Origin: Spirosoma foliorum
Lineage (GTDB): Bacteria > Bacteroidota > Bacteroidia > Cytophagales > Spirosomataceae
Reading direction: 5' to 3'
DNA length: 64,000 nt
Assembly (NCBI RefSeq): GCF_014117325.1
Contig: NZ_CP059732.1
Span: 1,054,001 to 1,118,000, forward strand
How positions within the stretch are numbered: position 1 is the stretch's first letter; each line of letters begins with the position of its first letter. Below are positions 1 to 15,664 of this stretch, piece after piece. The position numbers and the translations under genes were made by a program. The notes under the pieces are model-generated. The model was given only the letters and a program-made list of their open reading frames with translations. It searched no databases and was not told where the DNA came from.

Positions 1-1
1 A

Positions 2-175
2 TTTAAGACAGGAATTGAAACGACACCCAAAACGAAGTTACAACTGGCAAACGTTTCTTTTCGAAACGTAGCGTTGCCGATTGGCGCGGTTATTCGGCAG
101 GATACGTTCCGAAATGCCGTTATTGAGATTTCCGTAAAAAACCAACCTGATTCATCTAAACGAGTTCACCCCTGA
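2..175 (+). CDS. C-terminal end of an unknown protein (5' end outside window)
   Basis: An open frame runs from the window edge to a TGA at 173-175 and gives the last 57 residues of a protein. The TGA shares its last base with the ATG of the next gene (TGATG), so the two are almost certainly translationally coupled and in one operon. The fragment is rich in alternating hydrophobic and polar residues (LQLANVSFRNVALPIGAV), which suits a beta-sandwich, but no family is recognised. Given the neighbours, a component of the same kinase/cell-wall module is the natural guess. The rest of the gene lies upstream. Confidence 0.6.
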   Translation, partial: FKTGIETTPKTKLQLANVSFRNVALPIGAVIRQDTFRNAVIEISVKNQPDSSKRVHP

Positions 176-1737
176 TGGCTACGATTCGATTTGATACGCG
201 ATTTCCGGGCTATGAAGTGCTGAGTGAACTAGGTCGCTCGAATGCCCGGATTCTAAAGGCGCGTCACCTGGCCACTGGCGATCTGGTGGCGATTAAGCAC
301 TTTGCCCTGAATACCGATGCCGAAACGCTCCGGCGGTTTCAGCGCGAGTCGGCTATCATGACCAGCATTGCCCACCCCAATATTGTTAAGGTACGAGAGG
401 TTCAGCTAGAAGCCGAATTACCCTACATCGTCATGGAACTGATTGAAGGGGGCAATTTGAAGCAACTCATTGCTGGTCAGGATTGCGTGGACGTACCCAC
501 AGTTATTCGGCTGGGTTTGCAAATGGCCAGCGCGTTTAAAGCGATTCACCCACAAGGCATTGTTCACCGGGATATAAAACCCGAAAATATTCTGTATCGG
601 CCATTACCCAGCGGAGAGCTCCATTTTCTTCTGACGGATTTTGGCGTGGCTCGCCTGCACGAACAGTCCAATACACTGACAGGCCAGTCGTTGATGACCT
701 ATGAGTATGCATCGCCGGAGCAATTTAACGATCCTAAAAGCGTGGGACCTGCAACGGATTATTACTCACTGGGCGTGGTTTTGTACCAATGCCTTCATGG
801 GTGTGTGCCCTTTGCCCTGGACGATCATTCAGGAATTGTAACGTTTATGAATCGGGTATTGGCCGAAGCACCACCCGCGCTAACCATCACCGACGATCAA
901 TCGCTGAATCCGTTCTGGGAGTTATTGCAAGGTTTATTGCAGAAAAAAGCCAGTGACCGCCTAAGCGACCCCGACGAATTAATGTGGCTCCTTAAACAGG
1001 CTGAGCTCAATTATTTGCAGGCTGGTCGAGTTATGGCGACTCCCACTGTACAGGCTAAGTCGCCACAAGTTGCCCCGCTTATTCAGGAATCTGAACAAAA
1101 GCAGTTGCCTGCTCTATCGGTTGCTTCTGAAGAATCCTCGCCCGTTCCAGAACGCCAGTTACCTAAACAAAAAGGAGGCTGGTTAAAACTGGAAACGTTG
1201 GCATTGGCTGCTTTACTCGTTGGCTTTGCGTTCTATTATGTCCTGGTTGGGTCCAAGTCGGGCAGTAAGAGCGGGGCTGTAGATCCCATTGAAAATTCGG
1301 CCGCTAGCGGGGACTCTATTGCGCCTACTAATCTGGCGGAAGTATCGGCAATCCAGCAGCGGGAAGCCGAAGAAGCGCAGCGACAGGAACAACTTCGACA
1401 GGAAGCGCTGGCTGCAGTCAAGAGCTTGCGCGTAAAGACTACGGATTTTCGGGTTGGCTTATTCGGGGGTATCAAGAATATTCAACTTCAACTGACGAAC
1501 CCAAGTGCCGTCACCTTTTCGTCAGTTACGGTTCGGGTGAATTATTACAAAGAAAGTGGCGGGTTGTATAAATCGGAGAACGTGTCGTTTAGCTCAGTCG
1601 GACCGAATGCCTCGTTACTTCAAAATGCCCCTAATAGCGATCGGGGAGTCCGATTGAGCTGCAAAATTGTGAATCATCAGTTTGCTCCACCGCTGGATTC
1701 TCTTACGAATACAATGATGTCAGACTCGTTAAATTAA
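175..1737 (+). CDS. Membrane Ser/Thr protein kinase with extracytoplasmic sensor domain (first of a tandem pair)
   Basis: This is a Hanks-type eukaryotic-like kinase of 520 residues. The kinase domain spans about 13-275: catalytic lysine K41 in VAIK, catalytic loop HRD at 131-133 within HRDIKPEN, DFG at 155-157, and an APE-like SPE at 180-182. The glycine-rich loop is degenerate (LGRSNAR in place of GxGxxG). One membrane helix lies near 341-360, followed by an Ala/Gln/Glu-rich linker and a roughly 90-residue outer domain. That domain has an FGGIKN...VNYYKESGGLYKSE pattern resembling FxLYD-type beta-sandwich sensors. It starts at an ATG overlapping the previous stop. A near copy follows 7 bases downstream, then the RodA-PBP fusion. 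It probably phosphorylates envelope-synthesis proteins and the FHA partner; the substrates are inferred. Confidence 0.93.
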   Translation: MATIRFDTRFPGYEVLSELGRSNARILKARHLATGDLVAIKHFALNTDAETLRRFQRESAIMTSIAHPNIVKVREVQLEAELPYIVMELIEGGNLKQLIAGQDCVDVPTVIRLGLQMASAFKAIHPQGIVHRDIKPENILYRPLPSGELHFLLTDFGVARLHEQSNTLTGQSLMTYEYASPEQFNDPKSVGPATDYYSLGVVLYQCLHGCVPFALDDHSGIVTFMNRVLAEAPPALTITDDQSLNPFWELLQGLLQKKASDRLSDPDELMWLLKQAELNYLQAGRVMATPTVQAKSPQVAPLIQESEQKQLPALSVASEESSPVPERQLPKQKGGWLKLETLALAALLVGFAFYYVLVGSKSGSKSGAVDPIENSAASGDSIAPTNLAEVSAIQQREAEEAQRQEQLRQEALAAVKSLRVKTTDFRVGLFGGIKNIQLQLTNPSAVTFSSVTVRVNYYKESGGLYKSENVSFSSVGPNASLLQNAPNSDRGVRLSCKIVNHQFAPPLDSLTNTMMSDSLN

Positions 1738-1744
1738 TTGACTG

Positions 1745-3034
1745 ATGCCAACCGTAAGTGTCAATACGCATTTTCCGGGTTACGAAATTATTGGCGAACT
1801 GGGTCGCTCAAATGCCCGTGTTCTGAAGGCGCGTCATTTGGCCACGGGCGAATTGGTGGCGATTAAACACTTTGCGCTCAATACCGATGCCGAAACACTT
1901 CGTCGATTCCGGCTCGAATCGCAGCTAATGACTGATATTCGGCACCCAAATGTTGTGCGTGTTCGGGAGGTGCAACTCGATATGCCCATGCCGTTTATTG
2001 TTATGGACTGGATTGAGGGCGGCAATTTGCGAACGCTTCTTGCCGAGCGGGAGTACCTGGATGTGCCGGTGAGTATTCGGTTGGGGCAGCAGATGGCCGA
2101 AGCGTTTAAGGCAATTCATTCGCGAGGAATTATCCATCGTGACATCAAGCCTGAAAACATTCTATTCCGGGTGCTGCCCAGCGAAGAAATCCATTTCCTC
2201 TTAACGGACTTTGGTGTTGCTCGTCTGCGTGAACAGTCGCAAACCATGACGGGACAATCGTTGATGACCTATGAATATGCCTCGCCCGAACAATTTGACA
2301 ACCCCAGAGGTGTCGACGTAGCCACGGATTACTATTCGCTGGGCGTTGTACTATACGAAAGCCTGTCGGGTCGGGTGCCTTTTTCAATGACAGACAGTTC
2401 GGGAATGGCTACGTTTATGAACCAGGTCTTGCGCACATCTCCGCCCGAATTACAACTTCCTTCGGGGCAATATCTGCCCCCCAGCCTGAATACACTGCTG
2501 GACTGGATGCTAGTCAAAAATCCCGCCGAACGACTTAGTGACGTAAACGAACTGGTGCTACTGCTTGGTCAGGCAAACGTTGAGCAGTTGCAGGCAAGTC
2601 GTTCAGGTGGTCGCCGGGCTCCGGTTTCTGCCCGAACCGTAGCCGCACCTATTGCCGCCCCACAAACACCCCGACCAGTCCCATCTCAGCCAATCTATGA
2701 GGAAGAGCCTGCCAATAGCTTAACGAAGTGGAACATTGGCTTAGCCAGTTTGCTGGTGGCTTTATTAATTGGTCTGGCCGTTATTTATACAAATCGCCAG
2801 AAGAATAAGGTCAGCTCTACGATAACGCCGGACTCAACACAGATGATAACGGATTCATCGACTGCCACCGAAGTTGCTGCCGATACGACCTCTACTTGGT
2901 CAGATCATTCCAGCAGGTCGTCAGAGGATTCCGACGAAATAGAGGACCATTCCGAAACCACAACAGAACCTGTGCCACCCATATCGATGCCCGATTCGTC
3001 GGGTGTGGTGGAGGATACAACGAGGATTCCTTAA
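1745..3034 (+). CDS. Membrane Ser/Thr protein kinase, tandem paralogue
   Basis: A 429-residue Hanks-type kinase whose first 270 residues match the preceding kinase almost word for word and in the same register: K41, HRD 131-133, DFG 155-157. This points to tandem duplication. The glycine-rich loop has the same unusual LGRSNAR form. A single membrane helix lies at about 330-349. The outer tail of roughly 80 residues is acidic and Ser/Thr/Asp-rich, with no recognisable domain, so the two kinases differ mainly in what they present outside the membrane. The stop is 19 bases before the most likely start of the RodA-PBP fusion, consistent with one transcript. Kinase activity is well supported by motifs; the role in wall synthesis is inferred from context. 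Confidence 0.93.
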   Translation: MPTVSVNTHFPGYEIIGELGRSNARVLKARHLATGELVAIKHFALNTDAETLRRFRLESQLMTDIRHPNVVRVREVQLDMPMPFIVMDWIEGGNLRTLLAEREYLDVPVSIRLGQQMAEAFKAIHSRGIIHRDIKPENILFRVLPSEEIHFLLTDFGVARLREQSQTMTGQSLMTYEYASPEQFDNPRGVDVATDYYSLGVVLYESLSGRVPFSMTDSSGMATFMNQVLRTSPPELQLPSGQYLPPSLNTLLDWMLVKNPAERLSDVNELVLLLGQANVEQLQASRSGGRRAPVSARTVAAPIAAPQTPRPVPSQPIYEEEPANSLTKWNIGLASLLVALLIGLAVIYTNRQKNKVSSTITPDSTQMITDSSTATEVAADTTSTWSDHSSRSSEDSDEIEDHSETTTEPVPPISMPDSSGVVEDTTRIP

Positions 3035-3053
3035 GCACCATCAATACGATTAC

Positions 3054-6000
3054 ATGAAAGAAACTACCGTTCCGTCTGGACGTTTGTATTTAGTAGGTGC
3101 ATCGGTTATGCTGCTGGTTCTGTTTGCCCGGCTGTATATGAACCTGTTTCCGGGGCTTAGTAAAGCCAGGGAAGCCTTTGCCAGTGGACAGGCCTTACTG
3201 CTTGACGAAAAGCTCAAATCGACATCAATTCAGCGATTACTTAACAGCGGCAACTACTACAGTGACCCGAAAGACATAGCGTTCGTTGCCGATTCGTTAG
3301 CTGCCAAACTTCGCCAAAACGGTTCGCTCGACAATCTGGGGGCCATCAATAAGCGGCAGTTTTCGGTACTGGCTCCCGTAGCGTGGCGGAGCCGGATTGG
3401 TGGGGTTGATTTTCAGAGTCGGTTGCAGGCGTCTCGCCAGCAAATGGGGTTCGATTCGGTGCTTTATGTCCGCGAACGGAATAACCCCAAAACATACCCG
3501 GCTACCGTTAACCTAGGTGCTGGATCGGAGTCGATTTCGGGAGAAGTACTTCGTGACGAGCAGCCAATGGCGAACGTGTTAGTGCAATTAAAGCGCCATC
3601 CGGCCACCGCTCAACCCGATACACTCCCAGATCGATTTGCCTACGCTCGTACAGATGCCGATGGTAAATTCAGCTTTACTGGGTTGTCGGAAGGGGCTGG
3701 GTATAGCGTTGTGCCGCTTAAACCTGGTTTCGAATTCGGGAGCCGTCGGGGCATAAGTCGGCTGACGAGCCATCAGGACTATACATTTTCGGCTCGCCCA
3801 CACCAGCTACGTCTGATTGGCTCCATTGTATACGGGCAGCTTAAAACCGATCATGCCTTTACGGTACGGACACCAAACGCGTATACTGCGCAATTCTGGT
3901 CTATTGTTATTCTCTTTATTCTGGCCTTCTGGCTCGTCGAGGGCTTCTGGTCACTTCGGCGTTTCCAGTCAGATCCATTGCTACTGCCCATACTCATGCT
4001 CCTCACGGGCATATCGGTATTAACACTTTTAGCCATTCAAGACCCGTTGCAGGATATTCTCTACGCCTGGCAAACGCTACAAGGGGTTGCTGTTGGGTTG
4101 ATCGGCATGACAATTCTATCGCAAGTAAACATCGGTCGTTTTTACGCGGACTGGCGTTATGACTGGCTATTTGCATTTCGAAACCGAACGTCTGTTAAGT
4201 TGTCTGGCTGGACATGGCTGGTACTCGCCGTCGGGCTGGCTGCGCTGACATTATTGGTTGGTTCGGGTCCCGAGGGCAGTGGCGTACGGGTTAATCTGTC
4301 GATACTAGGGCTAACGATACAACCCAGTGAGATTACCAAATACCTGCTTGTTCTGTTCTTTGCCGGTTTCTTTGCCGCCAATGAACAACAGATTCGCCAG
4401 CTACCCGATTTACGCTGGCGGTTTACCGTAAGCTTTGGGGCGTTGGCCGGAGCGGGACTGCTTATGCTACTCTACTTGTTGCTGGGTGATATGGGCCCCG
4501 CGCTAGTCGTCTGTTTTACGTTCCTGTTGTTTTATAGCATCGCTCGGGGCAATTTACTGTTGACGCTGGCAACAGGGCTGGGGTATGGGATTATGCTCTG
4601 GCTGCTGCCCGGCGGAATTGCTACCATCCTTTCGTTGGTGATCTTGATCGGCTATATGTACTGGCGGGGCGAAGCCCGCTCAACGACAGGACTAGGCTGG
4701 GCCGCTTTATTAACCGAAGCACCGGTATTGCTCTTATTAGTAATGGCGATGTTTGCCTTTGGCGATCAATTGCCATTCGTTGGCGACCGTCTGGCTGGCC
4801 GAAAAGCAATGTGGCTCAGTCCATGGAATAACGATGTGTACGGGGGCGATCACCTGGCACATAGCTTCTGGACATTGGCGTCGGGTGGCTGGACAGGGCA
4901 GGGACTCGGTAAGGGGTTTGCCAGCGCTATGCCAGCCGCCCATACCGATATGATTCTGCCCAGCGTGGGGGAGGAGTTGGGCGGATTAGGCGTCATTGCT
5001 GTATTTCTGCTGATGGGTATTCTGTTGCATCGGACATTCCTGCACGCTCGTCGGGCCGGTCAACCATTCAGTTTTTTTCTGGTTGCCGGAATCGCTATTG
5101 CCACAGGTGTTCAATTCCTGATTATTGCTGGCGGATCAATTGGCTTATTACCACTTACGGGCATTAGTGTTCCCTTTCTGAGTTACGGGAAAATCTCCCT
5201 GATCATCAATTTAATGGCGATGGGTGTTGTGTTCAGCGTGGCACATCGACCGGGGCAGGTTGAGCAACGGGAATACCTGGAGAAGCATTACGATCTGGTG
5301 TTGATGTCGGGTATTGCCGGTTTCCTGATTGGGGTGTTAATTCTGATTGGTCGCTTATTGCCAATTATTAGCTGGAAAGGCAACGACTATATTGTGCGGC
5401 CAGCCCGAGTCGTTACGCGAAACGGTGATCCTGTTTATAGCTACAATCCTCGAATTGAGCGTCTGACCCGTGTACTGGCATCCGGCACGATCTACGACCG
5501 AAACGGTCTGGTACTGGCAACGAGTTCGCCGGAACTTGTTCGGCAGCAATTTTCCAGGTTACGGCAAAGTGGTCTGAAATCCGACCAGATCGAAACGCTT
5601 ACGCAAAAGCGGCTGCAACGCTATTACCCGTTTGGTGAACAACTGTTTTTCTGGGTTGGCGATTTGAATACGCAGCTTTTCTGGGGGCAAAGTAATGGCT
5701 ATTACGCTGAGGCCACCCATTTCAGTGAGTTACGGGGTTTCAACAGTCGCCCTCGCAAAACGAACCTTGTGGCTACCGAGTATCGCGCCGATCGCTTCAG
5801 CCCATCGGTTCAGCAGGAGCGTACGCTTTCGGTTTACGATTATAGTGAGCTGGCCCCAGCCTTACGAGCCGGGATTGATAGTCGCGAAGTGGCTCGTCGT
5901 AAGGCACAAAATCGTGATCTACACCTAAGCGTAAATGCAGAATTGCAAGTAGCTATCCAACAGGGCCTTGCCCAATCGGCATACAATAACAAGCGCCTTT

Positions 6001-7034
6001 CTGTGGTGGTGCTGGACGCTGCATCGGGCGATGTAATGGCGTCGGCAATGTACCCGCTTCCCGCCCTAAAAACGCCTGAAACGCTGCTGTTGTCGGATCG
6101 AGACCGTCTGAAACTACCGTATCTGGTAACCGAGCGTGACCTGGGTATGACCTATCCAACGGCTCCCGGTTCAACGGCTAAAATCCTGACGGCAATGGCT
6201 GCATTTAATAAGTTAGGCTCGTCGGCATCGGGCGTTACCTATCCGATTTCCTGTCAGGAGATTATCCGACGAGGGACACGGGAATCAGAACCTTGCGGTG
6301 AATCGGTGGACATGCGGAAAGCGATTGTTCGGTCGAGTAACGTGTATTTCATCCGAACAGCGAACGATAATTCGTTAGATAATGAGATGGCCGACCTCTA
6401 TCTGGCTACGGGGATGAACGTCGATCTGATTGGCGGCTATTCCTTTTCGGATACGCACACCGATGCTGAGCGGGTTCAGATTCGGAAACACTGGCGCGAC
6501 TCATCCTTTGTGGTGCGTCGGAAGTTGTACCAGAGTACGCAGTACCCAAGGCGTTATCGTTCTGAATTCTCCGGTCTGGCCTGGGGGCAGGGACAGTTGA
6601 CCGCAACGCCCGCATCAATGGCCAGAATGGCGGGCGCTATTGCAAACAAAGGTATCCTGCAACCATCGCGCTATCTGTTGGATCAGGCTGGGAAAGCAAA
6701 ACCTCTGGCTACCGGAAAACCAATAGCCCGTCGGCCCGATTATGCGGAGCAATTGCAGGAGTTCATGATTGAGCAATCGAATCCTTCAGAGGGGCGGAAC
6801 AAAATTAGCGTTGCCCGAGTGGCGGGTAAAACGGGTACGCCTGAACGTATTGTGCAGGGTGTTCAGGAAAACGATGGCTGGTATGTATTTTTCGCTCCTA
6901 CACCGAACGGCCGCTCACATACCGTTGTGGTTGTACGAATTGAGTTGGGCAACTCATCGGCCGACGCCGTCAATCTGGCGAATACTGTTGTGGCCCCAAT
7001 CTTAAAACAGCGGGGCTATTTGGGTAGCTTTTAA
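3054..7034 (+). CDS. FtsW/RodA glycosyltransferase fused to a penicillin-binding transpeptidase
   Basis: One 1326-residue chain carries both halves of a peptidoglycan synthase. An N-terminal membrane helix (about 8-28) is followed by an outer region with a carboxypeptidase-regulatory-like beta domain near 160-226. The polytopic SEDS (FtsW/RodA) core spans about 279-757, with the family signatures QPSE at 423-426, GDMGPALV, PAAHTDMI...GEELGGLG and GISVPFLSYG. The periplasmic PBP half follows: dimerisation region with GTIYDRNG, then the transpeptidase with SxxK (S1040-K1043), SxN (S1094-N1096) and KTG (1259-1261). All catalytic motifs are intact. The in-frame ATG at 3054 is preferred to 3003 because 3003 lies inside the kinase gene. 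SEDS proteins polymerise lipid II and class B PBPs cross-link it; normally they are separate interacting proteins. Confidence 0.93.
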   Translation: MKETTVPSGRLYLVGASVMLLVLFARLYMNLFPGLSKAREAFASGQALLLDEKLKSTSIQRLLNSGNYYSDPKDIAFVADSLAAKLRQNGSLDNLGAINKRQFSVLAPVAWRSRIGGVDFQSRLQASRQQMGFDSVLYVRERNNPKTYPATVNLGAGSESISGEVLRDEQPMANVLVQLKRHPATAQPDTLPDRFAYARTDADGKFSFTGLSEGAGYSVVPLKPGFEFGSRRGISRLTSHQDYTFSARPHQLRLIGSIVYGQLKTDHAFTVRTPNAYTAQFWSIVILFILAFWLVEGFWSLRRFQSDPLLLPILMLLTGISVLTLLAIQDPLQDILYAWQTLQGVAVGLIGMTILSQVNIGRFYADWRYDWLFAFRNRTSVKLSGWTWLVLAVGLAALTLLVGSGPEGSGVRVNLSILGLTIQPSEITKYLLVLFFAGFFAANEQQIRQLPDLRWRFTVSFGALAGAGLLMLLYLLLGDMGPALVVCFTFLLFYSIARGNLLLTLATGLGYGIMLWLLPGGIATILSLVILIGYMYWRGEARSTTGLGWAALLTEAPVLLLLVMAMFAFGDQLPFVGDRLAGRKAMWLSPWNNDVYGGDHLAHSFWTLASGGWTGQGLGKGFASAMPAAHTDMILPSVGEELGGLGVIAVFLLMGILLHRTFLHARRAGQPFSFFLVAGIAIATGVQFLIIAGGSIGLLPLTGISVPFLSYGKISLIINLMAMGVVFSVAHRPGQVEQREYLEKHYDLVLMSGIAGFLIGVLILIGRLLPIISWKGNDYIVRPARVVTRNGDPVYSYNPRIERLTRVLASGTIYDRNGLVLATSSPELVRQQFSRLRQSGLKSDQIETLTQKRLQRYYPFGEQLFFWVGDLNTQLFWGQSNGYYAEATHFSELRGFNSRPRKTNLVATEYRADRFSPSVQQERTLSVYDYSELAPALRAGIDSREVARRKAQNRDLHLSVNAELQVAIQQGLAQSAYNNKRLSVVVLDAASGDVMASAMYPLPALKTPETLLLSDRDRLKLPYLVTERDLGMTYPTAPGSTAKILTAMAAFNKLGSSASGVTYPISCQEIIRRGTRESEPCGESVDMRKAIVRSSNVYFIRTANDNSLDNEMADLYLATGMNVDLIGGYSFSDTHTDAERVQIRKHWRDSSFVVRRKLYQSTQYPRRYRSEFSGLAWGQGQLTATPASMARMAGAIANKGILQPSRYLLDQAGKAKPLATGKPIARRPDYAEQLQEFMIEQSNPSEGRNKISVARVAGKTGTPERIVQGVQENDGWYVFFAPTPNGRSHTVVVVRIELGNSSADAVNLANTVVAPILKQRGYLGSF

Positions 7035-7041
7035 GGAATTT

Positions 7042-7112
7042 AAATGTACCTGCGGGCTTCAGCCCGTATTATTAGTCAATTCATTCACGGGCTGAAGCCC
7101 GCAGGTACATTT
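7042..7112. repeat. Perfect 26 bp inverted repeat (REP-like hairpin)
   Basis: Arms 7042-7067 and 7087-7112 are exact reverse complements, separated by a 19-base loop. Each arm contains the smaller near-palindrome GGGCTTCAGCCC. It sits between the RodA-PBP fusion and the FHA gene, starting 8 bases after the stop. There is no T-run directly after it, so it may slow 3' decay or attenuate transcription rather than fully terminate. The shape resembles REP/dispersed palindromic elements. Confidence 0.85.
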
Positions 7113-7139
7113 TGCTTAACCAGTAACCATCAATCAACT

Positions 7140-8039
7140 ATGAGTTTGATCGAAAAAGTGAAAAACTTATTTGGCTTTACTGCTGCGGAACAACACGCTT
7201 CTGTTGAACCGATAATCGATTTGCCAAAAGGCGATGACTCAGATCCTGTTACGCCAAAATCGGTTCCGGCAGGGCCTCCGCCAGCCGCTCTGCAGCGGGA
7301 GCGGATCATTCGGTTTATAGTCAGTAAACTTCGGGCTTACCAGAACGAACCGGAAACGGCTCCTATTGGGCTTCGATTGGGTATTTTAAGGGCAAGCCCC
7401 GAAGAGGAAGAGTTGTACCGAGTGGCTTTGTGGGAAAATCAACCCGGTAAGTTTCAGCGTGAACTGAATCGGCAACTGGCCGATAACTACATTACACTGC
7501 CCCCCAACTGGCAGTTTAACTATTCATTTTTCTCGGACGAACTACCCGATAGTACTTATCTGGAAGGGAATCTGGGGCTGACTGTACTGGATAAATCAAA
7601 GCCGAATAACGCATCACTTCGAGCTAGTATCAGTGCATTAGTAGGGCAAATGGAACAGGCAAGCTATCTACTCGATCCTGCTCAAAAGACCGTTTACTGC
7701 ATTGGCCGTGGGCATACGACTCAAACAGCATCGGGCCGGGTTCGGACGAACGATATTGTGATTCTCAATGAGGATGATCCGGGCTTCGACCCTCAGAAGG
7801 GGGCTGGAAATGGTGCCGTTAGTCGGTCGCATGCAACCATCCGGTATGAGGCAGAGCAGCAACGGTATGTTCTTCTGGTGGATGCCGGGGGGCTTCCTGC
7901 CAATGGCAACAAAACAAAGATCATGCATCCCGATGAGCAGGTTGAACGGGCCGATATTGCGAATCTGGTTTATCCGCTTCAGGATGGAGATCAGATTGAA
8001 TTAGGTGGAGAAGTTATGCTTTTATTTAAACTGGCCTGA
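7140..8039 (+). CDS. FHA-domain protein (phosphothreonine reader)
   Basis: A 299-residue, probably cytoplasmic protein. The C-terminal third is a forkhead-associated domain with the hallmark residues: GR at 189-190, SRSH at 228-231 and a later N-x-T (GNKT). The first 180 residues include a Pro-rich linker and a region like the N-terminal domain (DUF3662-like) of actinobacterial FhaA, though that similarity is only suggestive. The start at 7140 is chosen because an upstream in-frame ATG at 7044 would put the coding region through the inverted repeat. It follows the kinases and the RodA-PBP fusion, so it is the natural reader of threonines phosphorylated by those kinases. That function is inferred; the domain itself is clear. 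Confidence 0.85.
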   Translation: MSLIEKVKNLFGFTAAEQHASVEPIIDLPKGDDSDPVTPKSVPAGPPPAALQRERIIRFIVSKLRAYQNEPETAPIGLRLGILRASPEEEELYRVALWENQPGKFQRELNRQLADNYITLPPNWQFNYSFFSDELPDSTYLEGNLGLTVLDKSKPNNASLRASISALVGQMEQASYLLDPAQKTVYCIGRGHTTQTASGRVRTNDIVILNEDDPGFDPQKGAGNGAVSRSHATIRYEAEQQRYVLLVDAGGLPANGNKTKIMHPDEQVERADIANLVYPLQDGDQIELGGEVMLLFKLA

Positions 8040-8070
8040 AACAACCCCTGTTGATTGCGCTGAAATTGAT

Positions 8071-8169
8071 CTAGTGTTCTTTCAAAATAGATTCTAAATT
8101 GATTTTTGTTGATAATCAATGCAATAGAATCCGGTGGAATCAATAGAATCTAGTTTGGCAAAGCACTAG
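8071..8169. repeat. MITE-like element, copy A (99 bp)
   Basis: The element begins CTAGTG and ends CACTAG, so its tips are inverted repeats. The interior is rich in GATTCTATTGATTC words. Its reverse complement aligns along its length with 31574-31680, and its core aligns with 47780-47855 and with the start of 10139-10233. It carries no coding sequence and lies between the FHA and corA genes. Confidence 0.65.
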
Positions 8170-8259
8170 GCATGACAATCCCGGAAATGAGGTAGTGGTA
8201 GATGGCATTCTGGTTGTTTGTGCGAACTTTGCGGCCGTGCCATCCGTCACTCAACTACT

Positions 8260-9210
8260 ATGATTCGTATCTTTCAGCAAGACGAAACCGCTGTTCGCAA
8301 AATTCGTGATATTGACTCGTTTTCCGATACCGAACGAACCCTCTGGGTGGATCTGCAAAATCCGACAGCCGCCGAAATCAAGAGCGTTGAAGAAAAATTC
8401 GATGTCGATTTTCTAAGCCAGCAGGAGCAGTTGGAAATTGAAAGTAGTTCGCGCTACATTGAAGAGGACGAATTCATGATTGCGAACTCCAATTTCCTGG
8501 TGCCCGATCAGGAACAGCGTTACGTAACCGTGCCCGTAAGTTTTATCCTCAAAGATGATACCCTGTTCACCTATCGAAATGCTGACATCAAGTCGTTTGC
8601 CGATACGGTCAAGCGGATTAAGTCGCGCCGGGCGTTGTTTAGCGATGGGGCACAGATATTGATCTCTATTTTCGAGTCGCGGATTGATTATGATGCTGAT
8701 TTGATTGAATTGGTGTCAGGCGAAATCAAAGCGATCAATCGAATACTCGATCTGGATGCGAATCTGGACAAAGAAATGCTGCTGAATATTAACGATTATC
8801 AGGAGTTGACTATGTCAATTCGAGAGAATGTGGTTGATAAACAGCGCGTTATTTCGTCGATGATTCGGTCTGATGGTTGGTTCAATGAACTCGAACAGCA
8901 ACGACTCCGAACCCTGATCAAAGACATTAACTCGCTAATCGATCATACCAATTTCATTTTTGAGCGACTGGAGTTCCTTCAAAATACCTACCTCGGTTTG
9001 ATTGACCTGGAGCAGAACCGGGTCGTTAAAATATTCACCGTTGTCTCGCTGGTGTTTCTGCCGCCTACTTTGCTGGCGAGTATCTGGGGCATGAACTTCG
9101 ATGAAATGCCAGAAGTGCACTGGAAATATGGGTATGTGTTTGCCCTGGCCATGATGGTAATTTCGTCGGCGTTAACGGTCTGGATTTTCCGGCGTAAAAA
9201 CTGGCTATAG
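8260..9210 (+). CDS. corA: CorA-family divalent cation transporter
   Basis: A 316-residue protein of the CorA metal ion transporter family, which forms pentameric inner-membrane channels for Mg2+ (and Co2+/Ni2+). A long acidic and helical cytoplasmic domain fills the first 250 residues. Two C-terminal membrane helices follow, with the signature GMN at 277-279 (WGMNFDEMPE) in the outer loop. The ATG at 8260 gives the usual CorA start (MIRIFQQDE); an upstream in-frame ATG at 8218 would add 14 atypical residues. The gene is monocistronic: a MITE-like repeat lies before it and a hairpin terminator after it. Confidence 0.9.
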   Translation: MIRIFQQDETAVRKIRDIDSFSDTERTLWVDLQNPTAAEIKSVEEKFDVDFLSQQEQLEIESSSRYIEEDEFMIANSNFLVPDQEQRYVTVPVSFILKDDTLFTYRNADIKSFADTVKRIKSRRALFSDGAQILISIFESRIDYDADLIELVSGEIKAINRILDLDANLDKEMLLNINDYQELTMSIRENVVDKQRVISSMIRSDGWFNELEQQRLRTLIKDINSLIDHTNFIFERLEFLQNTYLGLIDLEQNRVVKIFTVVSLVFLPPTLLASIWGMNFDEMPEVHWKYGYVFALAMMVISSALTVWIFRRKNWL

Positions 9211-9238
9211 AACCTTAATTAGCCTCAAAATATATTGC

Positions 9239-9272
9239 AGAAAGGTAACTGTCAGGGGGTTACTTTTCTATT
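9239..9272 (+). terminator. Hairpin terminator after corA
   Basis: An 11 bp stem, AGAAAGGTAAC (9239-9249) against GTTACTTTTCT (9259-9269) with one G-T pair, closes a 9-base loop and is followed by a T-rich stretch. It sits 29 bases past the corA stop. Confidence 0.6.
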
Positions 9273-9316
9273 TATCTGCGTCTTAGTTCCAAACTAAATT
9301 CCCATCTATATACCTT

Positions 9317-10141
9317 ATGGAACAGGCGCAGACAAAAGTTGAACTTTTTTACAGCCAGCTGGTAACCTTTGTTACCGTTTATGGCGGACGCGTATTGCTG
9401 GCTATCTTAACCCTTATAGTGGGTCTTTGGGTAATTGGCTGGATCATTCGATTGCTGTCGTCTTCGATGGCAAAACGGCACGTTGATCGCGATGTGCAAC
9501 CGTTCCTGATCTCGTTGGTAAATGGCCTGTTACGGGTACTACTCTTATTAAGTATTGCCAGCACGCTTGGCGTTCAAACCACGTCCTTTGTCGCCATTAT
9601 CGGCGCTGCCGGTTTGGCCGTTGGGCTAGCCCTTCAGGGAAGTTTAGCCAATTTTGCCGGTGGCGTATTGATTCTGATTTTTAAGCCATTCCGCGTAGGC
9701 GATCTGGTTACGGCACAAGGTTTTACCGGTAATGTGGAGGCCATCCGTATTTTCGACACAACGCTGGTGACCTTGGATAACAAAACGATTATCCTGCCTA
9801 ATGGCCCCTTATCGACATCGTCCATTGTGAACATCAGCACGAAAGGTGTTATTCGGGTCGATCAGGTATATGGGGTTGGCAGTCAGAATGATATCGACGC
9901 AACTAAGGCCTCTATTATGCGGGTAGTTGAGGCTTGTCCGTATGCACTGAAAGATCGTCAGCACGATGTTCTGATCGCCAAATTGAATCCAAATTCGCGC
10001 GAGTATGACGTGCGTGTCTGGACCAAGAGCGACACCTATTGGGAGACCTATTACTATATGCTCGAAAACATTGCCCGCCAGTTTGGTAAAGATGGCATTG
10101 AAGCACCCAAGCCAAAAATGTTTATTACCAACGAAGATTAG
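9317..10141 (+). CDS. Small-conductance mechanosensitive channel (MscS family)
   Basis: A 274-residue inner-membrane channel that opens under membrane tension and releases solutes on hypo-osmotic shock. Three hydrophobic segments lie at about 15-40, 65-85 and 90-115. The third is Gly/Ala-rich (GAAGLAVGLALQGSLANFAGG), as in the MscS pore helix. The beta domain with LDNKTIILPNGPLS and the alpha/beta C-terminus follow. The length is typical of a minimal MscS. The TAG stop lies inside the tip of a MITE-like element, and a rho-independent terminator follows at 10254. Confidence 0.93.
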   Translation: MEQAQTKVELFYSQLVTFVTVYGGRVLLAILTLIVGLWVIGWIIRLLSSSMAKRHVDRDVQPFLISLVNGLLRVLLLLSIASTLGVQTTSFVAIIGAAGLAVGLALQGSLANFAGGVLILIFKPFRVGDLVTAQGFTGNVEAIRIFDTTLVTLDNKTIILPNGPLSTSSIVNISTKGVIRVDQVYGVGSQNDIDATKASIMRVVEACPYALKDRQHDVLIAKLNPNSREYDVRVWTKSDTYWETYYYMLENIARQFGKDGIEAPKPKMFITNED

Positions 10142-10233
10142 TGCTTTGATAAAGTAGATTCTATCGATTCTTTAGATTCTCTGGATTCTAGTTATCACAC
10201 AATAGAATCCAGAGAATCAATAGAATCCTCAGA
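10139..10233. repeat. MITE-like element, copy D, with internal 16 bp palindrome
   Basis: The left end (TTAGTGCTTTG...TAGATTCTATCGATTC) matches the tip of copies A and B. The interior holds a perfect 16 bp inverted repeat (10175-10190 against 10203-10218) built from the same GATTCT words. The first three bases are the stop codon of the mscS-like gene. Confidence 0.5.
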
Positions 10234-10253
10234 AACTAAACCCTACTGATACC

Positions 10254-10287
10254 TGCCCGATTGATTCATTCAGTCGGGCATTTTTTT
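10254..10287 (+). terminator. Rho-independent terminator after the mscS-like gene
   Basis: The stem TGCCCGATTGA (10254-10264) pairs with TCAGTCGGGCA (10270-10280), with one G-T pair, and is followed at once by seven T residues. Confidence 0.85.
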
Positions 10288-10397
10288 AGAGAATTTAATA
10301 AGCGTTTTTTTTTGACGGTTGTTAAACGTTTGGATGGCTAGGCTATCTAACGATTATGAGTGTCAGATAATGCTGACAAGTAAAACAGCAACGCGCC

Positions 10398-11873
10398 ATG
10401 AATATCATGAAACCAATAAGATATATCGCCCTGATTGCGCTGGTAATGAGCAGCTTTGTTTATTCTGGCAAAGTGGCTGCTCAGCCGGGCGTTAGCGTAC
10501 CAATCGAGTCGTTTTATAATGAACTGGCTCCTTATGGGCAATGGATACAGTACCCTGGCTACGGCAACGTGTGGTTGCCCAATGCGGGTCCCGATTTTCA
10601 ACCTTATGCCAGCGCTGGACACTGGGTTGTTACAGAATACGGGAATACCTGGGTGTCTGATTATGCCTGGGGTTGGGCACCATTTCACTATGGTCGCTGG
10701 ATTTTTGATCAGGCCTATGGTGGATGGCTCTGGATTCCAGGCTCTGACTGGGGACCAGCCTGGGTGTCGTGGCGGTCGGGTGGAGGCTATTACGGCTGGG
10801 CTCCGTTAGCACCTGGCTGGGATATCAATGTGAACATTAACATTCCAGCTCCGTACTGGATCTTCGTTCCTCAGATTTATATCACGAGTCCCAACTTGTA
10901 TAGCTATTATGTGCCACGACCTCAGATCGTGAACATCTATCAACGCACCGTGATTTTCAATAATATCTATCGGTCGAACAACCGGGCTTATGTGTACGGA
11001 CCACCGCGTGGTGATATAGAGCGTATTACGCGACGGAACGTCCCAGTTTATCGTATCGATCAAATGGATCGGCCAGGTCGTTCGGTTGTAGGCAATGGTT
11101 CCGTAGGGTTCTATCGCCCTGGTGGTGGCGGGTTTGATAATCGACGTGATTACGGTCGTAATGACCGATTCGATAACTCAGGCCGACCTGGTAATAACGG
11201 AAATTTCCCTTCGAACCGAGGCTATTATGGCGGTCCTGGCAACGCACCAAATCGGGATTTTAACAACGGGAATAATACGCCAAATCGAGATTACAATGGT
11301 AATGGTGCTCCCAACCGAGGCTATAACGGGAACGGTGGCAATGGCGCTCCCAACCGAGATTTTAATGGTAATGGCGGCAATGGTGGTAACGGTGCTCCCA
11401 ACCGAGATTTTAATGGAAACGGTAACAATGGTGCCCCTAACCGGGATTTTAACAACAATGCTACGCCTAATCGTCCTTCTTTTGATGGCGGAGGCAATGT
11501 TCCAAATCGTGGAAATTATGGAAGTAATGCGCCTGGTGCCCCAACTGATCGGGGAGGCAATTACGGAACAACACCTGTACCCAGCAGCCCACAAACTCAG
11601 CCCAATCGTGGAAGTTATTCGCCCGGTGGCTTCCAGCAAGGAGGCAATCCTTCTGGAGGAATGCAGCAGCCCAATCGTTCGTTCGAACGTGTTGAGCGGC
11701 AACCTCAGCCTCAGATGAGTCCGCAAGGGATGCCCGGTGGCCGAAGCGGTGGAGATTTCCAACGGAGCGCAGAGGGTGGCCGTGGTGGCATGCAGCCACA
11801 AGCCCCAAGTCAGCCTCAGCAACCAAGTGGTGGTGGGAATGGAGGAGAACATCGCGGACGTGGTCCACGTTAA
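10398..11873 (+). CDS. Secreted YXWGXW-repeat protein (DUF6600-like) with Asn/Gly-rich tail
   Basis: A 491-residue exported protein. The N-terminus has a signal peptide ending near AAQ (residue 29). Residues 33-150 carry the aromatic repeats typical of this family: YGQWIQ, YGNVWLP, YAWGWAPFHYGRW, YGWAPLAPGW. From about 240 onward the protein is low-complexity, with tandem GNGAPNRDFNGNGG-like units, then Gln/Pro/Gly-rich sequence to the end. The function of the family is unknown; cell-surface or matrix location is inferred. The unit repeats at the DNA level could change copy number. Because of the biased composition, long open frames also appear on the opposite strand and in frame 2 here, and they are not genes. 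The start is ATG 10398, with ATG 10407 possible. Confidence 0.85.
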   Translation: MNIMKPIRYIALIALVMSSFVYSGKVAAQPGVSVPIESFYNELAPYGQWIQYPGYGNVWLPNAGPDFQPYASAGHWVVTEYGNTWVSDYAWGWAPFHYGRWIFDQAYGGWLWIPGSDWGPAWVSWRSGGGYYGWAPLAPGWDINVNINIPAPYWIFVPQIYITSPNLYSYYVPRPQIVNIYQRTVIFNNIYRSNNRAYVYGPPRGDIERITRRNVPVYRIDQMDRPGRSVVGNGSVGFYRPGGGGFDNRRDYGRNDRFDNSGRPGNNGNFPSNRGYYGGPGNAPNRDFNNGNNTPNRDYNGNGAPNRGYNGNGGNGAPNRDFNGNGGNGGNGAPNRDFNGNGNNGAPNRDFNNNATPNRPSFDGGGNVPNRGNYGSNAPGAPTDRGGNYGTTPVPSSPQTQPNRGSYSPGGFQQGGNPSGGMQQPNRSFERVERQPQPQMSPQGMPGGRSGGDFQRSAEGGRGGMQPQAPSQPQQPSGGGNGGEHRGRGPR

Positions 11874-11882
11874 TGAATAATA

Positions 11883-11932
11883 GAGCAAGAAAAAGCCACG
11901 TATCTGACTAGATACGTGGCTTTTTCTTGCTC
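11883..11932. terminator. Strong bidirectional terminator
   Basis: A long perfect stem (GAGCAAGAAAAAGCCACG... and its complement, 11883-11932) has an A-run on one side and a T-run on the other. It lies between the convergent YXWGXW gene (+) and the SDR gene (-) and can serve both. Confidence 0.85.
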
Positions 11933-12003
11933 AACTAAGCACCTAATCAACTATAGAATCTCAGCATCAGTAGAATCTAAATCTGCTTGATTGATTAGAT
12001 TGT

Positions 12004-12852
12004 TTACTGATAATTAGCCGCTATTTTTTCTAGATAGTCCTCAATTGGAATCGAGTTTCTGAGAGCCATCAAATTTTTCCCCATATCGCCCACTAAGGTT
12101 CGGAATTGCTTGGTTTCGCCCGTTGCCAGGTTATAAATTACATCGACAATGTCCTGTGGGTCATCGAGTAAGCTTGGGTCAGATTTACCTATCAGATTTT
12201 TTACTTTGTCGGTTAGGACGTCATAGTCCTTGATCGTTTCGTGGGTATTCCAGATAATATTGGCTCCGAAATTATTTCCTGATGAACCGCCTTGTTCAAC
12301 CAGCCGCAGGTCAATATTTAACGGCTTCAGCTCGTAATATAGGCCTTCGGTTAAACCCTCCAGGGCAAACTTCGACATGTTGTACAGCGACCCGATCGGC
12401 ACCGCTGTTGTCACGCCCATAAACGAACTGATGTTGATGAACATACCACCGCCGTTTGCTCTAAAATGAGGCAGAAAGGCACGAATTATATTAATTGGCC
12501 CTCGAACGTTTACAGCAAACTGCCAGTCGATGGTTGTTTCTTCGGCAAATTCCAGAGGTCCATAAGTCCCCATTCCGGCGTTGTTAACAACGACATCTAT
12601 TTTTCCGAAAGCGGAAATTGCCTGTTCGGTTGCTGCTTTTACCTGATCAAGATTGGTTACGTCCAGTTTGAAAACCTGAATATTTGGATGCTGTTGTAGC
12701 TCAGTTTCAGTTTCTGGTGTTCGCATGGTAGCGGCCACTTGCCAGCCCTGATTGGCAAAATAAAGTGCCGTTAGTCGGCCTAGTCCGGTACTGGTTCCCG
12801 TAATAAAAACAGTGCGACGGTCGCTATGAAGAGTTTCTGTTTGTGTACTCAT
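12004..12852 (-). CDS. Short-chain dehydrogenase/reductase
   Basis: A 282-residue NAD(P)-dependent classical SDR. The cofactor loop TGTSTGLG is near residue 18, NNAG at 90-93, and the catalytic residues are S142/S143, Y157 and K161 (YNMSK). The substrate is not evident. It is transcribed divergently from a HxlR regulator 96 bases away, an arrangement usual for redox enzymes induced by electrophiles or quinones. A promoter -7 box (TACCTTTG on the minus strand, 12876-12883) precedes it. Confidence 0.9.
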   Translation of the reverse strand: MSTQTETLHSDRRTVFITGTSTGLGRLTALYFANQGWQVAATMRTPETETELQQHPNIQVFKLDVTNLDQVKAATEQAISAFGKIDVVVNNAGMGTYGPLEFAEETTIDWQFAVNVRGPINIIRAFLPHFRANGGGMFINISSFMGVTTAVPIGSLYNMSKFALEGLTEGLYYELKPLNIDLRLVEQGGSSGNNFGANIIWNTHETIKDYDVLTDKVKNLIGKSDPSLLDDPQDIVDVIYNLATGETKQFRTLVGDMGKNLMALRNSIPIEDYLEKIAANYQ

Positions 12853-12875
12853 TTTATTATTTTTTTAGGACGTTG

Positions 12876-12930
12876 CAAAGGTATTTGTCGATTGGTATAA
12901 CTTTGTAATCAGTATACTCATGTATACCAA
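12876..12930. promoter_or_regulatory. Divergent promoters and likely HxlR operator
   Basis: A plus-strand box TAACTTTG (12898-12905) matches the Bacteroidota -7 consensus TAnnTTTG and points at the HxlR gene. A minus-strand TACCTTTG (12876-12883) points at the SDR gene. Two GTATAC words (12912-12917 and 12922-12927), separated by TCAT, lie where transcription of the HxlR gene would start, and a related GTATAA is at 12895. This is a plausible operator for autoregulation and control of both genes. Confidence 0.5.
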
Positions 12931-12948
12931 AATTGAATACGATACAAA

Positions 12949-13296
12949 ATGGCTGAGGTACTTACAAAACGGAATCCTGCCGAGGAGATTCAAGCGCTAC
13001 AGGATACGATCTATGTGATTGGCGGTAAGTGGAAACTGCCGATTATCAACTCGTTATGTAATGGGAATCGGCGCTTCCGGGAGATTCAACGGAGCATTCC
13101 CCAAATCACAACCCGAATGCTCTCGAAGGAATTGAAGGAGATGGAAATGAATAAGATTATCGTTCGTAAGGTATATCCCGATTCGCCCGTTCTGGTGGAA
13201 TATGAAACGACACCTTATTGCAAATCCTTTGGGAATATCATACAGGCAATGATCGACTGGGGCAAGGAGCACCGGAAGATGATTAAAGACGAGTAA
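12949..13296 (+). CDS. HxlR-family winged-helix transcriptional regulator
   Basis: A 115-residue protein with the whole HxlR (DUF24) signature: IGGKWKLPIINSL...RRFREIQRSIPQITTRMLSKELKEME...VEYETTPYCKSF. These are MarR-like dimeric winged-helix factors that bind palindromes between divergent promoters and often sense electrophiles, aldehydes or oxidants. Here the divergent target is the adjacent SDR gene. The length is normal for the family. Confidence 0.92.
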   Translation: MAEVLTKRNPAEEIQALQDTIYVIGGKWKLPIINSLCNGNRRFREIQRSIPQITTRMLSKELKEMEMNKIIVRKVYPDSPVLVEYETTPYCKSFGNIIQAMIDWGKEHRKMIKDE

Positions 13297-13334
13297 GTAG
13301 CAGCGCAAGGGATTAAGCGGTACTTTTGCCGCAG

Positions 13335-14117
13335 ATGCGTTATTTTATTGAATTATCGTACCGGGGAACGGCTTATCATGGCTGGCAGACGCAGGCAAAT
13401 GGAACGAGTGTGCAGACAACCCTCGAAGCTGCGCTAACACAACGATTCGGCAAGCCGATGTATGTTATGGCAAGTGGCCGAACAGATGCCGGTGTTCATG
13501 CTCGTCAGCAGTTTGCCCATGTTGAGTTGGTAGAGCCGTTTTTATTTACCGATTCATTTATTTATTCGCTCAATTGTATCCTGCCTGAAGATATTGTCAT
13601 CCACCGGATTTTTCCCGTTCGGGAGAAAGACCATGCGCGATTTTCGGCTACGTTTCGCTATTATCAATACCTGATTAGTCGTCAGAAAAGTGCTTTTGAG
13701 AGCGGCTTAACCTACCATTTTCGACCGACACTTGACGAAATCCTGATGAATGAAGCCTGCAAAATACTCTTGCAACATACTAATTTTCAGAGTTTCAGCA
13801 AGGCTCGGGCAAACGTCACGCATTTCAATTGCCGACTTGATTTTGCCTACTGGGAACGCATAAATGAGGATTCGCTGACGTTTCATATTCGAGCGGATCG
13901 GTTCTTATGGGGCATGGTTCGGACCATTGTTGGTACGATGATTGAAATAGGGCAGAAGCGGATGAGTCTTGAACTGTTTGAGCAGATTATCCTGTCCCGA
14001 GATCGGAACAAAGCTGGTCGGGCGGCACCTGCCAATGGTTTATTTTTAGTTGAAGTTGGTTATCCCAATGAGGTGTTGTTGGCGAGGAGCATGGGACAGG
14101 GAGCAGGGTTTATCTAA
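13335..14117 (+). CDS. truA: tRNA pseudouridine synthase A
   Basis: Converts U38-40 in the tRNA anticodon stem to pseudouridine. The 260-residue protein has the TruA start (MRYFIELSYRGTAYHGWQTQ), catalytic D51 in GRTDAGVHA, and the C-terminal RFLWGMVRTIVGT motif. The ATG at 13335 is chosen over an in-frame TTG at 13326 because it gives the standard N-terminus. A TActTTTG promoter-like box ends only 6 bases before it, so the message may have almost no leader. Confidence 0.95.
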   Translation: MRYFIELSYRGTAYHGWQTQANGTSVQTTLEAALTQRFGKPMYVMASGRTDAGVHARQQFAHVELVEPFLFTDSFIYSLNCILPEDIVIHRIFPVREKDHARFSATFRYYQYLISRQKSAFESGLTYHFRPTLDEILMNEACKILLQHTNFQSFSKARANVTHFNCRLDFAYWERINEDSLTFHIRADRFLWGMVRTIVGTMIEIGQKRMSLELFEQIILSRDRNKAGRAAPANGLFLVEVGYPNEVLLARSMGQGAGFI

Positions 14118-14184
14118 GCAATTATTCCTACTCCGTACACCCTGCCCCACGCCCCTTGCCGGTTTCCCCTTAAATTTTGTTAAA

Positions 14185-14218
14185 TTGAGCCGCTTAGCGG
14201 TCGAATCCGTTATTTTTG
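14185..14218 (+). promoter_or_regulatory. Promoter for the ftsX operon
   Basis: TTG at 14185-14187 and TAttTTTG at 14211-14218, 23 bases apart, fit the Bacteroidota sigma-A pattern. Transcription would begin about 15 bases before the ftsX ATG. Confidence 0.45.
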
Positions 14219-14239
14219 TCTCATAACACGAACCCCTGA

Positions 14240-15121
14240 ATGGCTCGTACAAAGAAGAAAGTAGGTATGTACCCCAGCGGCATGATTTTATTCAGTCTGA
14301 CGCTGGCCTTGTTTTTAATTGGTTTTTGTGGGTTGCTGGCGATTCAGTCGAAGAAGTTAGTCACCTACATCCGCGAGAACTACGAAATCCGGGCGTTTTT
14401 AGATAAAGACCTCAGCGAGAAAAAAACGGAAACGTTGTATAAAACCATCGCCGAACGACCTTATGTGCTAGTAGCTAACGGTAAACCACAGGTTAATCTG
14501 GTTACGAAAGATGAAGCCGCCAAAGAGTTTATTGCAGAAACAAAAGAGGATTTTTCGAAGTTTTTAGGTGAGAACCCACTGCATGATAGCTACCGAATTA
14601 AACTCAATGAGGGATATTTTGAGGAAGCCAAACTACAGGAGGTTAAACAAGATTTAGAGCAGATCGATGGTGTGTTTGAAGTTGTTTATCAGGAAAATCT
14701 GGTAGATAATATCAATCGGAATATCACCAAGATTTACGCGATCATGTCGGCCTTTGCGGTCATTCTGCTGATCATTATTGTGGTGTTGATGAATAATACT
14801 ATTCGGTTGGCGCTTCATTCGCAACGAATGCTCATCAGAAGCATGCAATTAGTCGGCGCAACAAATGCATTTATTACCCGACCGTTTTTGGGACGTGGTA
14901 TTTGGCAGGGGTTTCTGGCGGGCATTATTGCCGTTGGCTTGCTGATTGCAGGCTTGCAGCTCGCTATTCATAACCTGCCTGAATTATCGACGTTCCAGGA
15001 CCCAGAAAAGATAATTTTTCTGATGGTAGGTATTGTTGGGCTAGGCGTACTAATTGGTTTTGTGAGTACATTTCAGGCCGTTCATCGGTACCTGGGCCTA
15101 ACACTAGATGAGCTTTATTGA
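14240..15121 (+). CDS. ftsX: Cell division protein FtsX
   Basis: The 293-residue membrane partner of the ATPase FtsE. The FtsEX complex transmits divisome state across the inner membrane to activate peptidoglycan hydrolases. Helix 1 lies at about 16-38, followed by the roughly 130-residue outer domain (YEIRAFLDKDLSEKK...), and then three helices in the FtsX permease domain (about 170-290) ending with the VHRYLGLTLDELY tail. ftsE is not adjacent, as often in this phylum. It is followed by a DUF3098 gene and uppP. Confidence 0.93.
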   Translation: MARTKKKVGMYPSGMILFSLTLALFLIGFCGLLAIQSKKLVTYIRENYEIRAFLDKDLSEKKTETLYKTIAERPYVLVANGKPQVNLVTKDEAAKEFIAETKEDFSKFLGENPLHDSYRIKLNEGYFEEAKLQEVKQDLEQIDGVFEVVYQENLVDNINRNITKIYAIMSAFAVILLIIIVVLMNNTIRLALHSQRMLIRSMQLVGATNAFITRPFLGRGIWQGFLAGIIAVGLLIAGLQLAIHNLPELSTFQDPEKIIFLMVGIVGLGVLIGFVSTFQAVHRYLGLTLDELY

Positions 15122-15225
15122 TTAATGTATAATGTAAAATGAAGAATGCATAATGAAATAAAATGCGGTGATGAAATGGGGTAGCCAATCCATTTTTCAT
15201 TTTGCATTGTTCATTATACATTGAT
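15122..15225. repeat. Intergenic imperfect palindrome (AATG-word type)
   Basis: The ftsX-DUF3098 gap consists of two arms (about 15122-15156 and 15191-15225) that are near reverse complements made of ATAATG/AAAATG words. It could form a long hairpin in the operon message. Confidence 0.6.
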
Positions 15226-15238
15226 AACAAAAAAGACT

Positions 15239-15571: not shown

Positions 15572-15574
15572 AAG

Positions 15575-15664
15575 CAGTTATAAAGTTGTTGAGTTGTAGT
15601 GGTTATAACGTTTTTGAAAGGCAATTTTACAGCTTTATAACCGCTACAACTTTATAACTCTGTA
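15575..15664. repeat. Intergenic imperfect palindrome (TTATAA-word type)
   Basis: Arms of about 35 bases (15575-15611 and 15630-15664), built of GTTATAAAGTTGTAG words and their complement, fill the DUF3098-uppP gap. The sequence differs from the palindromes in neighbouring gaps. Confidence 0.6.

Follow-up and report, generated by a model that had tools for sequence, protein, structure and literature searches.

A Spirosoma operon encoding Ser/Thr kinases, a PP2C phosphatase, FHA proteins and a fused SEDS-transpeptidase, a candidate relative of the actinobacterial wall-growth island

The window analysed here is a stretch of 64,000 nucleotides of the Spirosoma foliorum genome (contig NZ_CP059732.1, positions 1,054,001 to 1,118,000). 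It begins inside a set of six co-oriented genes, which encode, in the 5' to 3' direction, an FHA-domain protein (FHA1), a PP2C phosphatase, two Ser/Thr kinases (STK1 and STK2), a SEDS protein fused to a penicillin-binding protein (PBP) and a second FHA protein (FHA2). We are moderately confident that the actinobacterial wall-growth island has a Bacteroidota relative in this locus, which would encode a phospho-regulated third peptidoglycan synthase made as one polypeptide. A previous sequence-only reading of the window had described the two kinases, the SEDS-transpeptidase fusion and the FHA gene that follows it. Its account is exact by the open reading frame (ORF) coordinates and by Pfam, including the gaps of 7 (STK1/STK2), 19 (STK2/fusion) and 105 bases (fusion/FHA2). 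The upstream gene that the first kinase was said to overlap encodes the PP2C, the stop codon TGA of which has one base, window base 175, in common with the ATG of STK1. Both a PP2C and a second FHA gene, which that reading had proposed to look for upstream, are present directly upstream of the window. The features of the locus are as follows.

G000:C1:1051565-1052569: FHA1, before the PP2C gene and outside the window
G000:C1:1052727-1054175 (L005:16727-18175): PP2C, whole gene, 482 amino acids, one membrane segment
1..175, + strand: 3' end of the PP2C gene (PP2C_2, 53.6 bits; cut-off 24)
175..1737, + strand: STK1, Ser/Thr kinase, 520 amino acids (Pkinase, 149.8 bits)
1745..3034, + strand: STK2, Ser/Thr kinase, 429 amino acids (Pkinase, 160.3 bits)
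3054..7034, + strand: SEDS:PBP fusion, 1326 amino acids, from an ATG
3531..3752, + strand: weak CarboxypepD_reg-like match in the N-terminal part of the fusion, predicted to be periplasmic (23.7 bits, below the cut-off of 32.3)
3906..5288, + strand: SEDS part of the fusion, residues 285-745, HTD at 630-632 (PF01098)
6000..7004, + strand: transpeptidase part of the fusion, residues 983-1317 (PF00905, 83.1 bits)
7045..7109, no strand: inverted repeat in the fusion/FHA2 gap, perfect 23-base arms at 7045-7067 and 7087-7109
7140..8039, + strand: FHA2, 299 amino acids from an ATG, C-terminal FHA domain (22.1 bits; cut-off 20.7)

The fusion is a single reading frame that holds both an FTSW_RODA_SPOVE match (138.2 bits) and the Transpeptidase match; no GT51 match was found in the fusion in the Pfam scan. 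An alternative in-frame GTG start is located at 3003. In the predicted topology an N-terminal membrane segment is followed by the CarboxypepD_reg-like region, the SEDS bundle, one further membrane segment and the transpeptidase, the motifs of which are STAK (1040-1043), SSN (1094-1096) and KTG (1259-1261). The roles of HTD, including its Asp, and of SxxK, SxN and KTG are general knowledge for the two enzyme families. All four motifs are intact in the 13 fusions aligned, two of which have KSG for KTG. This argues against the proposal that the fusion has lost its activity or serves a different polymer from peptidoglycan, a proposal in line with the very long branch of the fusions in the SEDS tree (1.14 changes per column) and, in our judgement, extremely improbable. 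The host also has two other SEDS proteins, whose best matches are RodA and FtsW; the FtsW-like gene adjoins murD and murG, and a separate RodA-PBP2 pair is encoded. Judged by its sequence, the fusion is most likely a third peptidoglycan synthase beside the ordinary FtsW and RodA/PBP2.

The fusion combines the same two enzyme families, with the same motifs, as the RodA-PBP2 and FtsW-FtsI complexes. Unlike these complexes of separate subunits, it is a single polypeptide, and its SEDS half lies outside the FtsW and MrdB-type RodA clades. Class A PBPs, which also carry a polymerase and a cross-linker on one chain, would act alike, but their polymerase is GT51 rather than SEDS. Among the titles and abstracts of open-access papers listed, none dealt with this SEDS:PBP fusion or with such an operon in Bacteroidota. 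The accessible part of PMC8225782 counts Slin_1280 of S. linguale as one of eight PBPs, under the name 'FtsW/RodA/SpoVE family protein', and describes neither the fusion nor the operon. By name only, Slin_1280 is probably the SEDS:PBP fusion described here. The same part of that paper calls other Spirosoma rod-shaped, and many Spirosoma described as rod-shaped have the module. The module might contribute to the coiling of S. linguale cells, an idea so far without support. Gene editing in S. linguale is reported to have failed (PMC8225782).

Within the family, the fusion is present in 29 of 121 genomes, in 7 of 36 genera (E<=1e-60). FHA1 (E<=1e-8) is found in 30 of the 121, namely in all 29 genomes with the fusion and in one of the 92 without it, G119 (Fisher test, 4e-27, kinship ignored). 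The contig of G119 begins immediately beyond PP2C and FHA1. The set is divided between two contig ends in G054. In G056 FHA1 is on a separate contig, 2.4 kb from its end, and the other five genes are together, away from a contig end. The gene order is kept in relatives, where the genes are together and not scattered: 17 of the 18 named Spirosoma and Larkinella loci have the full order of FHA1, PP2C, STK1, STK2, fusion and FHA2, including the frame-broken L047. The objection that the genes might be scattered in related genomes therefore fails. The 18 do not include L053, an ordinary SEDS. At L042 (S. endophyticum) only the fusion and FHA2 were found within the stretch. Three of the eight further family loci (L083-L090) are complete, three have a single kinase and one is without FHA2; at L083 three genes are inserted ahead of the kinases and FHA1 is just past the end of the stretch. 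PP2C and STK1 overlap by 1 base in 17 and by 4 bases in 2 of the 22 plus-strand loci in which both genes are adjacent.

In a sample of the phylum, the fusion is present in 15 of 395 genomes (E<=1e-40), three from the family, seven from the same class and five from other classes. All seven same-class loci (L071-L077) have FHA1, PP2C, the fusion and FHA2 in this order, with kinases on one or both flanks. At L078 the genes are those of FHA1, PP2C, the fusion and an FHA protein; at L081 they are those of FHA1, the fusion and an FHA protein, and a PP2C was not found. Both loci have a kinase some 4 kb upstream. The FHA proteins that follow the fusion at these two loci (L078:11935-13305 and L081:11979-13253) have a HEPN_Swt1 domain at the N-terminus, matched with 90 and 78 bits. 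In the three f19 loci (L079, L080 and L082) an FHA gene precedes the fusion and an ORF of 336-342 amino acids follows it, which at L079 gives a very weak FHA match (13.4 bits). A second, divergent fusion (L091:5165-9088, genome G251) is 29% identical and has a kinase-like ORF nearby; an FHA gene was not found in its neighbourhood. The greedy choice of ORFs missed genes in the GC-rich L078, and the absences at L079-L082 and L091 are equally doubtful, those at L081 less so.

The patchy spread in the family and the phylum allows for an alternative, in which the fusion is an accessory synthase, switched on by the kinases in special circumstances only (repair of the wall, stress by beta-lactams or desiccation, cell shape, resting forms) and not employed in general growth. 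The normal FtsW and RodA/PBP2 of the host fit such a role, as do two sampled Spirosoma genomes, G055 and G089, that have neither the fusion nor FHA1 at the thresholds given above. So does a plasmid copy: in Spirosoma oryzicola all six genes are carried by a plasmid of 136,743 bases (L160, NZ_CP089545.1 63324-91286). However, the whole set is intact in most of the named Spirosoma and Larkinella loci, as would be expected of regularly used genes, and we regard the accessory role as rather doubtful.

The genome of S. foliorum has a second run of signalling genes (G000:C1:4570618-4579289, L203:5618-14289, minus strand), which encodes, in order, a PKD/fn3 protein, a TPR protein, a kinase with TPRs, a caspase-domain protein, a PP2C, an FHA protein, an unmatched protein and another FHA protein. 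None of these eight proteins, all scanned, is a wall enzyme. Such cassettes thus occur on their own, and the kinases, PP2C and FHA proteins of the module might likewise be mere neighbours that act on other targets, with the synthase no more than co-transcribed. This is unlikely, because FHA1 is found without the fusion only once, at a contig end, and at the most distant loci FHA genes still accompany the fusion, including those at which a kinase was not found. The clustering of kinase and FHA genes is itself more than chance, since there are few such matches in the whole 8.85-Mb genome (five Pkinase and three FHA at E<=0.001, with FHA1 itself under that limit) and the block is kept in relatives.

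The ancestry of the synthase was examined for its two halves. Free-standing relatives of the SEDS half were sought among candidates sharing 5-letter words with the fusion. Among the 120 of 551 matches listed, fragments of the same fusion rank first, and the few named free-standing relatives are from Chloroflexi, Actinomycetota, Thermoleophilia and Limnocylindria. In pairwise comparison with the fused SEDS, 15 free-standing rows score 119 to 99 bits, RodA proteins from the actinobacterial records 94 to 71 bits (n=5; a broken sixth scores 17), and Bacteroidota FtsW and RodA 71 to 25 bits, the host's own having 47 and 25. The 15 rows are biased towards the fusion, since they were taken from its own SEDS search. 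In a tree of 62 SEDS rows, a branch with 100/100 support parts the group containing the fusions from all FtsW and MrdB-type RodA rows. Besides the fusions, which form a clade of their own (100/100), this group holds actinobacterial RodA, a Clostridia RodA and all but one of the 15 free-standing rows, the exception being P0292, which is placed with FtsW. Three other placements were rejected by the approximately unbiased (AU) test: fusions with Bacteroidota RodA (p 0.0001), with Bacteroidota FtsW (p 0.001) and with all FtsW (p 0.0004). As far as sequences tell, the fused SEDS is a member of the wider RodA clade of the actinobacterial/Chloroflexota type and is not derived from the phylum's own FtsW or RodA. 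The SEDS trees leave out the frame-broken Arthrobacter RodA and, for one locus set, alternate Bacteroidota rows. A Monoglobus record (Clostridia; L162, NZ_OY725743.1) has an FHA protein, a RodA-type SEDS and a PBP as three separate neighbours, and its SEDS sits in the same large clade as the fusions.

The transpeptidase half forms a clade of its own. Its placement with PbpA has p 0.35 and that with PBP2 p 0.13; a transpeptidase of the FtsI type was rejected (p 1.6e-5). The tree has no PbpA row from the Streptomyces plasmid locus. Among solved structures, the PBP that it matches best is Penicillin-binding protein A of M. tuberculosis (3un7, 3lo7). Another SEDS:PBP fusion, P0262, branches as the sister of the Bacteroidota fusions (100/99), and its alignment with them runs through the junction; it has a helix-hairpin-helix match (PF12836) where these have the CarboxypepD_reg-like region. 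P0204, a fragment of like build with an Armatimonadota label, is the nearest row to the fusions in the transpeptidase tree. The placement of these two suggests that the joining of SEDS and PBP may have preceded the spread of the fusion through Bacteroidota. One could go further and propose a transferable, phospho-switched cassette, in which an ancient RodA-PBP pair, common to actinobacteria and Chloroflexota as well and fused before that spread, moves between lineages as a third synthase toggled by kinases and two FHA proteins. We put this forward tentatively, as a possibility; its mobile part is opposed by the sole carrier plasmid, that of S. oryzicola, which was typed as non-mobilizable.

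In the actinobacterial island (fhaA-fhaB-pstP-rodA-pbpA-pknA-pknB) FHA, PP2C, SEDS, PBP and kinase genes are likewise linked. Records of Actinomyces oris and Tsukamurella have, in order, DUF3662/FHA, FHA, PP2C, RodA, PBP, kinase and PASTA kinase. According to the accessible part of PMC6554272, the linkage of pstP, rodA, pbpA and a PASTA kinase is conserved throughout Actinobacteria, pstP shares a transcript with rodA and pbpA, and pknB-fhaA is found in a subset of Firmicutes. FhaA and FhaB are described, in the part of PMC11898655 available, as phosphothreonine readers tied to wall synthesis. The Spirosoma module and the island have in common the FHA-PP2C-SEDS-PBP order, the SEDS clade and the presence of two kinases. 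They differ in that the SEDS and PBP of the module are fused, a second FHA gene follows the synthase, the kinases are probably of another clade, have no PASTA match and precede the synthase, and the phylum is a different one.

FHA1 resembles FhaA in having an N-terminal domain and a C-terminal FHA domain. FHA1 and FHA2 have no predicted membrane segments; FHA2 has a further in-frame ATG at 7044, on the edge of the inverted repeat. The FHA match of the FHA1 at the window (19.5 bits) is below the cut-off of 20.7. A model of the S. arboris FHA1 homologue shows the FHA fold; the predicted local distance difference test (pLDDT) of the FHA1 model is 58.5, which is low confidence. Among six FHA1-type proteins, FhaA_N is matched in that of L079 (27.4 bits, cut-off 25), gives 17.7 bits in that of L081, below the cut-off, and is without a match in the other four. 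Profiles of Cytophagales FHA1 align with distant FHA1 over 260 columns (E 7e-15), and distant FHA1 proteins match FhaA in the FHA part only (E 9e-7). Any membership of FHA1 in FhaA would thus go by a chain of matches, since it is the distant homologues that link Cytophagales FHA1 to FhaA. FHA1 and FHA2 have no PDB sequence matches at E up to 1. In the models, the N-terminal domains of both have the order helix-strand-helix-strand-strand, which gives an impression of likeness to FhaA_N; the solved FhaA N-terminal domain is absent among the listed fold matches, from searches that covered mainly the FHA parts.

Each of the two kinases has the VAIK, HRDIKPEN, DFG and SPEQ motifs and one predicted membrane segment (STK1 residues 341-359, STK2 331-349) with a tail beyond it. 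They are 57.6% identical across 356 aligned positions. The Pfam scan gave no PASTA match in either, and PknB_PASTA_kin scored 185 and 191 bits, below its cut-off of 450. In the tree the module kinases form clades of their own, and the STK1/STK2 pair is a duplication inside the family. Four of the eight kinase ORFs of L071, L072, L073 and L077 entered this tree (none from L071), which has no row from L232, L237, L242 or L246; the careful version also leaves out L220, L226, L227 and L241. The kinases have matches to numerous PADLOC models, but those listed cover the kinase domain or little more, and a defence-kinase reading was rejected. The PP2C protein has the PP2C motifs and the single predicted membrane segment. 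In a small, long-branched tree that lacks the L207 and L217 rows, the PP2Cs of the module, 13 in number, fall into a single clade (99/97) and show no particular affinity to PstP.

The duplication of the kinases within the family, as opposed to an inherited PknA/PknB pair, and the PP2C that lacks a special PstP tie would both be expected if the operon had been assembled convergently inside Bacteroidota from local parts. We consider this very unlikely: the origin of the SEDS from Bacteroidota FtsW or RodA is rejected, a distant FHA1 has FhaA_N and the FHA-PP2C-SEDS-PBP order is identical. The SEDS grouping, together with the link from FHA1 to FhaA through distant homologues, indicates that the core of the module and the fhaA-pstP-rodA-pbpA island are most likely homologous. 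The sequence-only reading had left a choice between convergent assembly and ancient transfer. For the core, homology is by far the likelier, and it fits either transfer or common descent. That reading had also likened the gene set to the actinobacterial one; this stands for the co-directional set of functions and is not supported for the kinases as PknA and PknB.

Several observations weigh against the relationship and the phospho-regulation proposed here. A tree placing all module kinases with PknA/PknB was rejected (p 0.006); with the Cytophagales module kinases alone p is 0.08, and the best tree keeps them apart. The FHA1 at the window, unlike FhaA, lacks an FhaA_N match and has a degenerate FHA domain, in which the glycine of the usual GR is gone. 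The Cytophagales FHA1 profile has no direct match to actinobacterial FhaA (probability 3.6%). One FtsW of the Bacillus group and one of actinobacteria score 94 and 74 bits against the fused SEDS, near actinobacterial RodA, and the pairwise scores are by themselves indecisive because some FtsW score as high. For the transpeptidase half the PBP2 type is allowed as well as the PbpA type. The N-terminal tail of the fusion is short, and its threonines are not conserved. Finally, at the three f19 loci no kinase or PP2C was seen beside the fusion and FHA1 among the ORFs examined.

A few features of the surrounding DNA may be added. The pattern of the 7045-7109 repeat is present in the window at its two arms only. 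A second inverted repeat, perfect or near-perfect and of other sequence, lies in an operon gap at about G000:C1 1052656-1052725. A promoter and terminator scan upstream was near chance level. The G+C content of the module (window 1-8000) is 0.50-0.52 in 2-kb bins, and that of 8001-20000 is 0.44-0.49. A search of viral_contigs with the patterns used gave no relative, so no viral carrier was seen.

In the mechanism that we propose for the relative of the actinobacterial island, the outer tails of the kinases would report the state of the envelope, and their inner kinase domains would phosphorylate threonines of cytoplasmic partners. Such partners could be the FHA proteins, the kinases in their own right, the short stretches of the fusion that face the cytoplasm, or an enzyme of precursor synthesis. 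The phosphothreonine would be bound by FHA1 and FHA2, which would bring, gate or release the fused synthase, and the membrane-bound PP2C would reset the system. It is from sequence that we infer the activity of the enzymes, the sensing, the phosphorylation, its reading by the FHA domains and the direction in which control would run.

The coordination of SEDS proteins with class B transpeptidases and the control of the wall by Ser/Thr kinases have been studied mostly with separate subunits. With SEDS and PBP on one chain and the regulators in six adjoining genes, stoichiometry would be fixed and both questions would be testable with one cassette; the fusion offers a natural one-piece wall synthase for this. 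The module would also place a relative of the actinobacterial wall-signalling island in a Gram-negative phylum, and it may show which parts of the island were retained and which, like the kinases, were replaced or duplicated.

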